Positions 47,247-52,150 of a DNA stretch of 64,000 bases are shown here, piece by piece. The DNA is from an uncultured Planctomycetales bacterium (GTDB taxonomy: Bacteria; Planctomycetota; Planctomycetia; Isosphaerales; Isosphaeraceae), in NCBI GenBank assembly GCA_903926465.1, contig CAIYJE010000200.1:1-64000 (forward strand), in the 5' to 3' direction. The position numbers and the translations under genes are program-made. Numbering within the stretch: position 1 is the first letter of the stretch; every line of letters starts with the position of its first letter. The notes below the pieces were generated by a model. It worked only from the letters and a program-made list of their open reading frames with translations. It had not been told where the DNA came from and searched no databases.

Positions 47247-47606
47247 ATGCAAAGTCCTGGATCACTCATGTCCGCATTCTTCAGTTTAAGCTTGGTGCTG
47301 CTACTCGTTCCACACGGTGAACCACTTTCGAAGGTTCACGGTGCGAGTTTCGTTCGATCTACACCCTTTGCATTTGCCACTTCATCTCACACGGATCTGC
47401 TCAATTCTAACGTATCAGACCGCCGGCAACTTGATTTCGATTGTGTGGAAATTGAAGAGGATGATTCCGACGATCGCGAGCAAGATGCATCAGGAGATCC
47501 TGATCATGAATCGGATCTTCGCGTATCCTCTCAACGCACATGTACACAAATTGGCCAGCGACCATCCACCTGGCAGCAGCTTCAGAAAATCCGGCTTCGC
47601 TGTTAA
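47247..47606 (+). CDS. Small putative exported protein upstream of the SbtA-like gene
   Basis: A 119-residue frame with a hydrophobic segment (MSAFFSLSLVLLLVP, from the internal ATG at 47268), a middle with many Ser/Thr, and a highly acidic stretch (VEIEEDDSDDREQDASGDPDHESD). It has no family I recognise. The acidic central part resembles that of the small ORF upstream of the SulP gene (51569-51931), which also sits just before an anion transporter on the same strand. Alternative frames on both strands overlap it, so its reality rests mainly on the signal-like start and on that positional parallel. Confidence 0.4.
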   Translation: MQSPGSLMSAFFSLSLVLLLVPHGEPLSKVHGASFVRSTPFAFATSSHTDLLNSNVSDRRQLDFDCVEIEEDDSDDREQDASGDPDHESDLRVSSQRTCTQIGQRPSTWQQLQKIRLRC

Positions 47607-47879
47607 ATAATTTCGGGAACCCGCGTGGTACGCGTGTATTGAGCGCAACCGCCAGTCCCTCCAGCACCTGCTTTCATTGAGATCTGACTGAGTTCAAGCA
47701 GACGGTTGCTTGCCGGCCAGATCCCTGGTTCATCCAGGCCCGTGAACCGTGATCCAGAATGGATTAACGGCCACGACTGGGCCTGAGCGCGACCTCATAG
47801 GTCCTTCGCAGGCCCAAAACCGACGAAATTGAAGTATTCGCTGCCATCCGCATTCTCTGATTCAAGTGAGATCTAAGCG

Positions 47880-49481
47880 ATGAAGCTCCATTCCGGACTC
47901 AGGCGAGCGCTCCGTAGCCCATTCTTCGCAATTCTTGTCATCCAAGGATTGCTTATCACAGCCCAGACGCAAGCCCAGGATGTTAGTGGGGCCGTGACCA
48001 AGGTTGATACCCTGCGCAATGAGATCACGATTCAGCATCAGGCACTTCACCGCGAAGTTCGGGTGCAGTTAACGCCCGACGCCACACTTCGTGATCCCGA
48101 AGGTAAAGACCTCACAATCGAGGAACTGAACGCCAAACTTGAGGAGTATGAGAAGAACGGGATCAAGAATGGCCTACGTGTAACGGTCACGTCGGCCATG
48201 GTGGCTTCGTCGATCGGAGTCCAGAAAGAGACCCCCGTTCGACCCTTCTTCCAGGAACTGCTCTTTAACATCCAGCACAACCTGTTCAAGCCACTGCTAC
48301 TATTCTTCTATATGGGATTCCTGGTCCCATTTTTGAAGATCAAGTTCGAATTTCCGTACGCGATGTATCAGGCCCTCACCATCTATCTGTTGATTGCCAT
48401 TGGCTGGCATGGCGGTGAAGAACTGGCACAATTGGACCCAGCCGTCATCGGCTCGGTCGCCGGTTTCATGGGAGTTGGATTTGTTACCAACACGCTGATT
48501 GGCCTGCTGGCATACGGCCTGCTGACAATTAGCACCAAGATGCGGAGAATCGACAAGGCAACCGTGGCTGGGTATTACGGTTCAGACTCCGCGGGAACAT
48601 TTGTCACGGCACTTGGTGTGCTGGCTGCCGTGCACATCTCTTATGATGCCTATATGCCAGTGATGCTGGCCGTGATGGAGATTCCCGGCTGCCTTGTCGC
48701 GCTGTTCCTGGTTTCACGACTCAGGCAAAATGGCATGGATCCGGCCGGAACCATGCCCGATGAGCCCGGCTACAACCCCAATGCCGTTGCGCCCCTTTCG
48801 GCCGGCGTGGACGATGATCATGGACATGAGGCGACCCCCGCTCAGGCCATATCTCAGGAACTCGCCGAGGCCCTTGAGGAAGAACGCGAACTTTCACTCG
48901 AAAAGCGAGAAAAGCCAACCAAGTATGGCCCACGACCGGGCGGTGTCTTCAGTGCCAAAATGCTTCACGAAGTGTTTTTCAACCCCGGCCTGTTCCTGCT
49001 CTTCGGTGGAATCACAATCGGATTCTTGAGCCGGCTCCAGGGAGCCGACGTCGTTCGTGACGACGATAACTTCTTCAATGTGCTGTTTCAGGGAGTACTC
49101 TGCCTGTTCCTGCTGGAAATGGGCATGACTGCATCCCGGAAACTCAAAGATCTGCGGACGGCGGGCCTGGGCTTTGTTCTGTTCGCCCTGCTGGCTCCGA
49201 ACCTGTTCGCCTTGATCGGTATCCTCTCCGCCCATGCCTACAGCATGCTGACCCACAGCCCGTTCGAGCTGGGAACTTACGTGCTGTTTTCCGTACTCTG
49301 CGGAGCCGCTTCCTACATTGCCGTACCCGCAGTCCAGCGACTGGCCATTCCAGAGGCCAGCCCCACCTTACCGCTGGCCGCTTCACTCGGCTTGACCTTC
49401 TCTTACAACGTGACCGTGGGTATCCCGCTTTACATTGAAATCGCACGTGCCATCACCAAGGCCTGGCCCGTCATTGGCTAA
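47880..49481 (+). CDS. SbtA-like sodium-dependent bicarbonate transporter with N-terminal periplasmic domain
   Basis: A 533-residue protein. Residues 1-32 form a signal peptide ending in AQTQAQ. Residues 33-105 make a small soluble beta domain (SGAVTKVDTLRNEITIQHQ..REVRVQLTPDATL) followed by a helical linker. The rest (from about 125) is the SbtA/DUF897 membrane domain, with LLLFFYMGFLVPFLKIKFEFP, IGWHGGEEL, AGYYGSDSAGTFVTALGVL and, at the end, CGAASYIAVPAVQRLAIPEASPTLPLAASLGLTFSYNVTVGIPLY. A charged cytoplasmic loop lies at about 290-350. SbtA takes up bicarbonate with Na+ in cyanobacteria; planctomycete substrates are untested. The extracytoplasmic domain is unusual for this family. The gene is convergent with a SulP transporter. 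Confidence 0.82.
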   Translation: MKLHSGLRRALRSPFFAILVIQGLLITAQTQAQDVSGAVTKVDTLRNEITIQHQALHREVRVQLTPDATLRDPEGKDLTIEELNAKLEEYEKNGIKNGLRVTVTSAMVASSIGVQKETPVRPFFQELLFNIQHNLFKPLLLFFYMGFLVPFLKIKFEFPYAMYQALTIYLLIAIGWHGGEELAQLDPAVIGSVAGFMGVGFVTNTLIGLLAYGLLTISTKMRRIDKATVAGYYGSDSAGTFVTALGVLAAVHISYDAYMPVMLAVMEIPGCLVALFLVSRLRQNGMDPAGTMPDEPGYNPNAVAPLSAGVDDDHGHEATPAQAISQELAEALEEERELSLEKREKPTKYGPRPGGVFSAKMLHEVFFNPGLFLLFGGITIGFLSRLQGADVVRDDDNFFNVLFQGVLCLFLLEMGMTASRKLKDLRTAGLGFVLFALLAPNLFALIGILSAHAYSMLTHSPFELGTYVLFSVLCGAASYIAVPAVQRLAIPEASPTLPLAASLGLTFSYNVTVGIPLYIEIARAITKAWPVIG

Positions 49482-49509
49482 GAAGTTGACTGCGGATGCA
49501 TAAAAGAAA

Positions 49510-49544
49510 AAGCCTGGACGACTCGTCGAAAGTCGTCCAGGCTT
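49510..49544 (-). terminator. Rho-independent terminator of the SulP gene
   Basis: A perfect 14-bp stem AAGCCTGGACGACT (49510-49523) / AGTCGTCCAGGCTT (49531-49544) with a 7-base loop. On the minus strand it is followed by a T-rich run, 38 bases after the SulP stop. It may also serve the convergent SbtA-like gene, though no T run follows on the plus strand. Confidence 0.88.
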
Positions 49545-49582
49545 ACCCTACAAAAGCTCGGCAGCTTCAATCCCACCAGAAT

Positions 49583-51361
49583 TCAATCAACCGACTGAAC
49601 GTCGGCCAGGGTATCCCCTGTTGGAGGAAAGGTACTCGGAAATTCCACCGCCGCCAACTCTCCCTCCGCCACCAGCTTTGTGGGAGCAAGTTTCCGGTTT
49701 GCCACTCGAAGCGCCGCTGGAGATTTGGAGCGGGTCTTCATCCGATCAAGACCCTGAATTTCGACATGCCCCCGACCACTTTGCTCAAACTCCTCCGCAA
49801 AATGAAGCAGCATGTCACAGGTGGTGTGGTCGATCATGGCCACCCCACCCCTGAAGAACAAAATCACATTCTTTGCTTCAGAAGGCACTCGGTCGAGTTC
49901 TCCAAGTAATGCGGCCGAGTTGAAGCAGACCAACGGCCGATCAAATTGAAGGTGGTAGGTATCTTGCTCCATACCTCGATCCACAACCGGGTTCCGGAAC
50001 AATTGTGTGGCGTTGCCCAGGGCATACTTAATCGTTTCGCCGAAACCGAGCGATCGGCCCGCACGACTCCAGGAATCTCGCGAAACATAAAACAGGTTGA
50101 TCAGGAACTTCAAGACCATCCCCGCGATGATCCCGATTAGCAGATCTTCTTTGAGCGTGACCGCAATCGTGAAGGCAAAGACGAACAGTTGCTCTACACC
50201 GACCTGCGCCATGTGCTTCCAGATCCGGAACTCGAACATCTTGTATCCGGTGTAGATCAAGATGGCCGCAAGAGCGCTATAGGGAATTAACTTGATTGCG
50301 TCTTTGGCAACGAACAGGAAGATCACCAAAAACACCGCGTTATAGAGGTTGGCCCAGAGGGTTTTGCCACCACTGTTGATACAAAGCTTGCTCTTAACAC
50401 CACCAGGAATAATCGTGAGTCCACCCGCCAGGCTCGATGCCAGGTTAGAGACCCCCATCGCCAGCAGCGTGCGGTCCGGATCAGACCGGCGCTTGTAAGG
50501 ATCAATCTTGTCAATGGCCTTGATGGTCGCCAACGATTCCACACCATCAATCAAAACCAGGATCAGTACGCTGGATACCGCGGCCCAGATCAAAGACTGA
50601 TCATTGATCAATCCACGGAAGTCAGGCAGCGTGATGCCGTGCTTGAGGATATTATCCGGCATCTGGATCAATCGCTCGCTGTCAATCTTCAGCACCTGGC
50701 CCAGAATCATTCCAATAACCACAACCACCAGGGGCGGCGGGACAGGCAACAGCTTACGGATTCCGTTGATGTGAAGCACAAACATCAACACCAGGCAAAT
50801 CATGCCGATTCCAAAAACCGTGGGGTCCAGAGACCGCACGGCTACTGGAAATTCCTCAAGGATCGGAAAGAATCCTTTGGAGTGAAATTCCGTACCCAAA
50901 AAGTGCCCAAGTTCCTTCACGACAATCAGAAGCCCGATTGACGCGAGCATTCCCTCAACAACCGCCACCGGCAGCATGGCGCTCAACCGGGCCGCGCCCG
51001 CCAGGCTTAACCCAACCTGAATAATCCCCACCATGCAGATCACAGCCAGGAGTAGCGGATATCCGGCAACACGATCTCCATGCCCAAGCGCCACCATGGC
51101 GGCCAGCAAGGCTGGGGCAAGACCGGCCGCAGGGCCACTGATGGTAAGGTAAGCCCCGCCCAAAAATGGGAAAATCATACCGGCAATAATTGCCGACGTC
51201 AGACCCGCGATGGCTGGTGCCCCAGAAGCGACAGCAATTCCCAGCGAGAGCGGCAGCGAGGTCAGAGAGACCATCAGGCCGGCCATCAGATCCGATTTCC
51301 AGTACTTCAGTCCGGCCACGCCATTTTGTGGCTTCTCAATTTGCGATGCGATTGAACTCAT
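49583..51361 (-). CDS. SulP-family anion transporter (SLC26/BicA-like) with STAS domain
   Basis: A 592-residue SulP protein. The N-terminus LKYWKSDLMAGLMVSLTSLPLSLGIAVASGAP is the classic first helix pair; ISGPAAGLAPALLAAMVALG is the anion-site helix; SLAGGLTIIPGGVKSKLCINSGGKTLWANLYNAVFLVIFL and LAAILIYTGYKMFEF are further family blocks. About eleven helices precede a STAS-like domain (about residues 465-545: VCFNSAALLGELDRVPSEAKNVILFFRGGVAMIDHTTCDMLLHF), then a 45-residue tail. SulP proteins import sulfate, or bicarbonate in the BicA group. Pairing with an SbtA-like gene, facing it and sharing a terminator region, favours bicarbonate, but this is inference from position. Start at 51361. Confidence 0.88.
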   Translation of the reverse strand: MSSIASQIEKPQNGVAGLKYWKSDLMAGLMVSLTSLPLSLGIAVASGAPAIAGLTSAIIAGMIFPFLGGAYLTISGPAAGLAPALLAAMVALGHGDRVAGYPLLLAVICMVGIIQVGLSLAGAARLSAMLPVAVVEGMLASIGLLIVVKELGHFLGTEFHSKGFFPILEEFPVAVRSLDPTVFGIGMICLVLMFVLHINGIRKLLPVPPPLVVVVIGMILGQVLKIDSERLIQMPDNILKHGITLPDFRGLINDQSLIWAAVSSVLILVLIDGVESLATIKAIDKIDPYKRRSDPDRTLLAMGVSNLASSLAGGLTIIPGGVKSKLCINSGGKTLWANLYNAVFLVIFLFVAKDAIKLIPYSALAAILIYTGYKMFEFRIWKHMAQVGVEQLFVFAFTIAVTLKEDLLIGIIAGMVLKFLINLFYVSRDSWSRAGRSLGFGETIKYALGNATQLFRNPVVDRGMEQDTYHLQFDRPLVCFNSAALLGELDRVPSEAKNVILFFRGGVAMIDHTTCDMLLHFAEEFEQSGRGHVEIQGLDRMKTRSKSPAALRVANRKLAPTKLVAEGELAAVEFPSTFPPTGDTLADVQSVD

Positions 51362-51568
51362 AAGACAAGCACTCCACGCGCGGCCTTGGACCGCAGTATG
51401 AAACGGTATGCAATGGAATCAAGAAGGTTGCCACCATGACCAGGTCATGCAGCTCAATTACCCAGATGCGGAATGCAAAAGCGCAAGCCTCGCACACCAC
51501 ACATAAGCTCCAGTCAGAAAATCCCCAGAGGGACCAACAACTAGAATTCACCTACCTATGCAGTTGAT

Positions 51569-51931
51569 TCAACAGCGCAAAACCGAGTGTGCCTGATCTC
51601 GAATCAGAGGAGTGAGCAATAAATTTCGACCAGCAGCACCGAATAACAACTCCACCACTGGCGAAGTCCAGTAGGCAGCGGCATCCATCCGCAGAGCACG
51701 ATGAGATACTTCCGCTTTACTCGACGGATCTTCTTCGAGTTCAAGTTCCTCACGAACTTCCTCGACATAACCGGGATCGGAATCTTCACGCCGATCCGTC
51801 GGACAGCTCGGAACTTCGGATGCCGGTCGCAGCAGAATCGTACTTTGGTCAGCGCAAAACCCTGAACCGTTACCGGCAGCATCGCCGGCAAATTGTCCCA
51901 GCATCGCTACAAGCAAAAGCAAAGCTGCCAT
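51569..51931 (-). CDS. Small putative exported protein upstream of the SulP gene
   Basis: A 120-residue frame with a hydrophobic start (ALLLLVAMLGQFAGDAAG), a short Cys pair (one in the N-terminal third, one further on), and a strongly acidic stretch (YVEEVREELELEEDPSSK). The second half is more hydrophobic (SPVVELLFGAAGRNLLL). No family recognised. It starts at ATG 51931 with AGGCGG about 9 bases upstream and lies 207 bases before the SulP gene on the same strand. Codon use and composition support a real gene. It parallels the acidic small ORF before the SbtA-like gene. Confidence 0.5.
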   Translation of the reverse strand: MAALLLLVAMLGQFAGDAAGNGSGFCADQSTILLRPASEVPSCPTDRREDSDPGYVEEVREELELEEDPSSKAEVSHRALRMDAAAYWTSPVVELLFGAAGRNLLLTPLIRDQAHSVLRC

Positions 51932-52111: not shown

Positions 52112-52150
52112 AACAAAGCCACCCAGACGTCTCGTCTGGGTGGCTTTGTT
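52112..52150 (-). terminator. Strong terminator after the DUF1501 gene
   Basis: A perfect 18-bp stem (52112-52129 and 52133-52150) with a 3-base loop, containing AAAGCCACCCAGACG / CGTCTGGGTGGCTTT. A and T runs flank both sides, so it can act on either strand. It lies 39 bases after the stop of the DUF1501 gene. Confidence 0.92.

Follow-up and report, generated by a model that had tools for sequence, protein, structure and literature searches.

Short leader ORFs ending in Leu-Arg-Cys upstream of transporter and efflux-pump genes in Isosphaeraceae: candidate exported arrest peptides

The exported arrest peptides identified in the literature act in protein export and in the handling of copper. 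Those regulating sec and yidC genes have been described by four criteria, namely a small ORF located upstream, a localisation signal, a conserved C-terminal end and more than 30 residues between the two, and some such peptides halt the ribosome while the stop codon occupies its A site (PMC10987492). In Bordetella, the copper-responsive exported uORF CruR (DUF2946) features a sensor motif 45 residues before the sequence RAPP, is separated by a 162-nt spacer from the next gene, and acts in a Rho-dependent manner (PMC9426467). In Rhodobacter, CutF is the exported copper-sensing leader of cutO, and links export to how the following gene is translated; CzcI is named as the element upstream of the czcCBA RND system (PMC9973294). 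The locus described below hosts two small ORFs of comparable design, located upstream of transporter genes.

A convergent sbtA-sulP locus and its small ORFs

The DNA analysed, hereafter the window, is a stretch of 64,000 nucleotides from an uncultured Planctomycetales bacterium of the Isosphaeraceae. An sbtA-like and a sulP-like gene are found there in convergent orientation, each with a small ORF upstream on its own strand (Table 1). The arrangement had been pointed out in a sequence-only reading, and is real. Both transporter genes are confirmed by Pfam, a terminator-like hairpin, which reads on the sulP strand, lies between them where a terminator had been noted, and the upstream ORFs of about 120 codons, with a signal-like start and an acidic stretch, are present at both sides. 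They are denominated here leaders A and B. The perfect hairpin that parts leader B from the DUF1501-like gene suggests that leader B may start its own transcript. A search for sigma-70-type promoters gave no excess over shuffled sequence.

Table 1. Features of the sbtA-sulP locus; coordinates refer to the window.
Feature	Position	Strand	Remarks
Leader ORF A	47247..47606	+	119 aa; ends I-R-L-R-C-stop; hydrophobic N-terminus; alternative start ATG 47268
Leader A acidic patch	47448..47486	+	residues 68-80, EIEEDDSDDREQD; read from sequence
Leader A LRC-stop	47595..47606	+	CTT CGC TGT TAA
Leader A-sbtA spacer	47607..47879	+	273 nt, without called gene; possible attenuation region, presumed function
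SbtA-family transporter gene (sbtA-like)	47880..49481	+	533 aa; Pfam Sbt_1, E 2.9e-97
Terminator-like hairpin for sulP	49510..49544	-	15-bp stem and T-run; between sbtA and sulP
SulP-family transporter gene (sulP-like)	49583..51361	-	592 aa; Sulfate_transp, E 6.6e-51; C-terminal cytoplasmic region conserved
Leader B-sulP spacer	51362..51568	-	207 nt; presumed function
Leader ORF B	51569..51931	-	120 aa; ends S-V-L-R-C-stop; hydrophobic N-terminus
Leader B LRC-stop	51569..51580	-	TTG CGC TGT TGA
Leader B acidic patch	51728..51763	-	residues 57-68, EEVREELELEED; read from sequence
Perfect hairpin	52116..52146	no strand	between upstream same-strand DUF1501-like gene and leader B

Along its membrane part, the window SbtA aligns with the SbtA of Synechocystis (E 5e-19). 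Ser114, Tyr140, Ser324 and Ser327 have been proposed as bicarbonate contacts of SbtA (PMC8352866); as read off the pairwise alignment, Ser114 (S237) and Ser324 (S478) are kept in the window protein, and Tyr140 and Ser327 correspond to A264 and A481. Residues 1-120 (47880-48240) form an extra signal/anchor and a small beta-rich domain, found in most family members and missing in some. The solved structure closest to the window SulP is 6ki1, which we take to be BicA. The same protein scores 131 bits against the NCBIfam model BicarbTportBicA, under the equivalog cut-off of 880 bits. BicA ligands are Thr69, Asp258, Thr262, Gly300, Ala301 and Thr302 (PMC13249358), and just one of the six, Thr262 (T279), is retained in the pairwise alignment to the window SulP, in which Asp258 is E275.

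Leaders upstream of three unrelated kinds of transporter

Leaders A and B match no Pfam family, and leader A finds in NCBIfam only a chance-level match. Remote homologs had been thought worth seeking, and direct similarity searches with either small ORF singly gave matches at noise level only. After these searches failed, relatives were located by position and composition upstream of orthologous transporters. ORFs of like size, with a hydrophobic N-terminus, an acidic stretch and an end in -LRC or near it, are found there. The collection counts 46 members, A and B included, of which 12 precede sbtA, 9 sulP and 25 RND-efflux operons. Each of the 46 immediately precedes a transporter gene or operon and is encoded on its strand; the transporters are of three unrelated kinds. 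The two window ORFs had been regarded as not clearly homologous; the comparison places both in one fast-evolving family, to which no Pfam or NCBIfam family corresponds. A and B are accordingly assigned to an undescribed family of short leader peptides, presumably exported, preceding transporter and efflux-pump genes in Isosphaeraceae.

ORFs of this design are rare elsewhere. In 1.95 Mb of partly overlapping loci, 14 distinct ORFs combine a hydrophobic part with an acidic patch and a Cys as last residue; 13 of these immediately precede sbtA or sulP and share the strand of that gene. As a control, forty 20-kb segments were sampled at regular intervals from two genomes, 800 kb in all and not selected for transporters, and yielded one matching ORF (L270), which precedes a membrane-fusion-protein/RND efflux operon. 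As the loci had been selected by their transporters, the restriction of leaders to transporter genes rests on this control and on those parts of the loci that lie at a distance from transporters. A weak HMM match (L217) likewise precedes an RND operon. Among the RND loci fetched from Isosphaeraceae, 24 of 30 feature the same kind of Cys-ending leader upstream of the membrane-fusion-protein gene. One of the 24 is found elsewhere in the genome of the window itself (G000:C116:15156-15521), and one more leader, in G009:C157, precedes the RND gene itself. At about half of the loci with sbtA or sulP in Isosphaeraceae, no leader is recognised.

In an HMM search of 398 genomes of the class, clear matches are confined to Isosphaeraceae; matches outside the family are weak (E 0.001-0.01), several with internal stops. 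As the model derives from the very members that it retrieves, and performs poorly on divergent ones, leaders may be more widely spread; model A5 matches leader A at E 7.8e-13, leader A having been part of it. In G432, a member of another family, a sulP leader ending PPLC was identified (L201). No Cys-ending leader was found at nine RND loci fetched from outside Isosphaeraceae, and plasmid records searched with one leader gave no match. At one of these nine loci (L361, in G556), a 125-aa ORF of like design precedes the fusion-protein gene; its acidic patch is 48 residues from the end, and the ORF ends TYG. In an RND operon of G010 (L369:4675-8217; noted with L270 and L273-L286), the membrane-fusion protein opens with a stretch of some 68 residues that is homologous to the beginning of an RND pump (47% identity, E 2e-17), as if a leader and the start of a pump had been joined onto another gene.

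The family bears on the sequence-only proposal that the two transporters and two new accessory proteins make up a dedicated inorganic-carbon uptake module. Both transporter families do include bicarbonate transporters. In addition, 10 mycobacterial loci, some with two copies of sbtA, encode a close SbtA relative and, nearby, a SulP of 45-48% identity, the two genes being arranged in tandem or divergently (L129, L142, L144, L145, L156, L161, L174, L179, L181, L190). This hints at a functional connection of some kind between the two transporters. Leader-type small ORFs are, however, absent from all ten. Of 45 genomes of the family, 28 encode an SbtA relative and 32 a SulP relative, usually at separate loci; records at these loci carry the names Singulisphaera acidiphila, Paludisphaera soli and Aquisphaera insulae, among others, which identifies the family as Isosphaeraceae. 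Outside the window the two genes are found together in G034 only, in tandem and with a leader before each. The four-gene order expected of such a module is therefore judged not conserved, and a conserved four-gene module was rejected. A role specific to inorganic carbon was discarded once the RND-operon leaders were found. Because the leaders also precede drug-type pumps, and the window SulP lacks five of the six BicA ligand residues, a dedicated module is not supported and is considered very unlikely.

Leader anatomy and coding constraint

The leaders are 102-136 aa long (46 members), lengths being uncertain to the extent that the start codons of some members were chosen manually and the start of L280 was hand-trimmed. 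They share one plan, in which a hydrophobic N-terminus, a body that is not conserved, an acidic patch and an acid-poor basic tail are followed by the end [LM]-R-Cys-stop. The N-terminus was judged by hydropathy; the predicted structure of leader B adds an N-terminal helix, and is otherwise devoid of confident structure (mean pLDDT 61, pTM 0.21). The final Cys is found in 42 of the 46 members. In these, Cys at -1 (42/42) is preceded by Arg at -2 (39/42), Leu at -3 (36/42) and Pro at -4 (26/42); of 415 long background ORFs, 7 have Cys as their last residue, and one has Arg-Cys as its last two. Since the Leu, Arg and Cys positions are written in many synonymous codons, selection acts on the peptide and not on the RNA. 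Stop codons show no clear difference in preference, TGA closing 35 of 42 leaders and 315 of 415 background ORFs.

Counted from the C-terminus, the acidic patch is centred at 46.1 residues on average (sd 4.0); counted from the N-terminus, the average is 74.4 (sd 9.1). Within sets, the distance to the C-terminus is tighter still (sd 3.1 for sbtA and 2.7 for RND leaders), and in 17 other ORFs passing the hydrophobic and acidic filters the sd is 30.8. The last 30 residues carry an average charge of +2.9, and the preceding 30 of -7.2.

The four members lacking the final Cys are all sulP leaders, belong to two lineages, and feature RAPP or RSPP near the end. L110 and L111, from the Singulisphaera group, end RAPPCFS, and RAPP is found in these two only; in L116 and L118, RSPP is followed by six residues. 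The acidic patch of these members is centred about 46-53 residues before the last residue of the motif. RAPP is established as an arrest motif, and RSPP served as a RAPP-like query in PMC10987492. Among random ORFs of these GC-rich genomes, 0.7% (19/2855) carry a sequence of the type R[AGS]PP in their final 15 residues, a figure to be read with the caution that the four members were examined with a RAPP-type motif already in mind. An arrest function for RAPP and RSPP in these leaders is thus suggestive, and is not proven.

Leader bodies align poorly, and the little similarity shared by distant members could be taken to mean that the small ORFs are not genes. This is hardly credible, as the closest ortholog pair has a dN/dS of about 0.33, denoting constraint in frame, and the codon-independent LRC end and the fixed geometry recur across dozens of members. 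More distant pairs give dN/dS values of 0.3-0.6, and one of about 1.1 where dS is unreliable. The recurrence of relatives before orthologous transporters, the dN/dS of the closest pair and the near absence elsewhere of ORFs passing the filters set the small ORFs beyond chance.

The leaders may be exported accessory factors acting after translation, for instance periplasmic chaperones or subunits binding the transporter through the C-terminal Cys. Coding constraint, the N-terminal hydrophobic segment, the Cys ending most members and the linkage to transporters are all in keeping with such factors. Yet one family precedes three unrelated transporter types, its body is not conserved and is predicted largely disordered, the leader is always found directly upstream in cis, and the spacing of the patch is fixed relative to the C-terminus. 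Accessory factors are on this ground held to be unlikely. Of the small accessory proteins not yet described that the sequence-only reading had envisaged, what stands is that they are real, linked to transporters and devoid of a Pfam or NCBIfam family; they are read here as regulatory leaders, and not as subunits of a module.

Proposed mode of control and relation to known systems

The spacers separating leaders from the following genes are 200-400 nt long. An excess of C over G spans the end of the leader and the early spacer, falling from 0.18 to 0.06 (background CDS 0.003); it fits a Rho site, and in part reflects amino acid composition. Neither a common RNA structure nor an RNA switch has been established in the spacers folded, which are one group of six sequences and the two of the window. 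The fixed position of the leaders, the long spacers and the C-over-G excess would equally suit ordinary translation coupling or Rho attenuation with no stalling at the LRC-stop, the peptide end serving, for example, rapid degradation or efficiency of termination. This leaves unexplained the conservation of the end at the amino acid level in many codons, and the spacing of the patch, and it is deemed improbable, somewhat more so than accessory factors.

Features of exported arrest peptides recur in the leaders. All 46 members are small unannotated ORFs directly upstream on the same strand; the N-terminus reads as a secretion signal or TM segment by hydropathy and by the helix modelled in leader B; the C-terminal sequence [LM]RC-stop is conserved among homologs; and, at 102-136 aa, more than 30 residues separate the signal from this end. 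On these grounds, and given the CruR and CutF precedents, the patch spacing and the C-over-G excess, the leaders are proposed to stall at the LRC-stop and to control the transporter downstream. We consider it probable that A and B are cis-acting regulatory nascent-chain leaders of the SecM/CruR/CutF kind, stalling at their own stop codon, and not subunits of an inorganic-carbon module. The broader view that they represent a new Isosphaeraceae family of exported arrest peptides, in which LRC-stop stalling and a charged patch acting as sensor outside the tunnel control several unrelated transporters, is given about even chances.

The leader would be translated on the transporter mRNA, its N-terminus directing the nascent chain to the membrane. 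At the stop codon, the Leu-Arg-Cys end and the basic tail may slow termination. The ribosome exit tunnel spans 30-40 residues, and the acidic patch, about 46 residues back, would thus sit just outside the ribosome, where it might bind a ligand or feel export; a cation, pH, proton motive force and translocation state are candidate cues. Depending on whether the ribosome stays or leaves, the downstream transporter would be made or not, through Rho access to the spacer or mRNA folding.

What had been taken for the accessory proteins of a carbon module is in this way reinterpreted as a family of cis-acting leaders, presumably exported, of transporter genes, which would add a variant to a known kind of system if stalling is confirmed. 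A family heading sbtA, sulP and RND-pump genes would, if true, extend nascent-chain control to general transport, with ion or drug transport set by nascent-chain sensing, and would provide a new stop-codon motif and a sensor geometry testable in vitro, in a phylum, the Planctomycetota, whose gene regulation is little known. It would also explain why similarity searches missed the small ORFs, as conservation is confined to the three final residues and to the spacing.

Cyanobacterial SbtA/SbtB and BicA belong to the same superfamilies as the transporters downstream of the leaders, and differ from the window proteins at binding-site residues. LRC-stop is not among the arrest motifs reported in the available portions of the articles on exported arrest peptides (PMC10987492, PMC7897499). 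SecM, ApdA/ApdP and the NSP-stop, NAP-stop and DGMK-stop groups share with the leaders the N-terminal localisation signal, the variable body, the conserved end and the upstream position; unlike the leaders, these arrest peptides precede secA, secDF or yidC. CutF differs in its CXXXC sensor, in its proline-rich end and in a stem-loop that covers the ribosome-binding site of the gene downstream. It resembles the leaders as a short exported-type leader located before a metal-handling gene or RND system, with a C-terminal stalling-like motif and control of the next gene, the latter being proposed here. CruR features CXXC and RAPP in place of the acidic patch and LRC-stop, copper is not implicated for the leaders, and none of 24 leaders searched matches DUF2946 at E <= 0.1. 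CruR (about 145 aa) and the leaders are nonetheless alike in being exported-type uORFs placed directly before a transporter operon, in the spacing from sensor to end and in the long spacer (PMC9426467).
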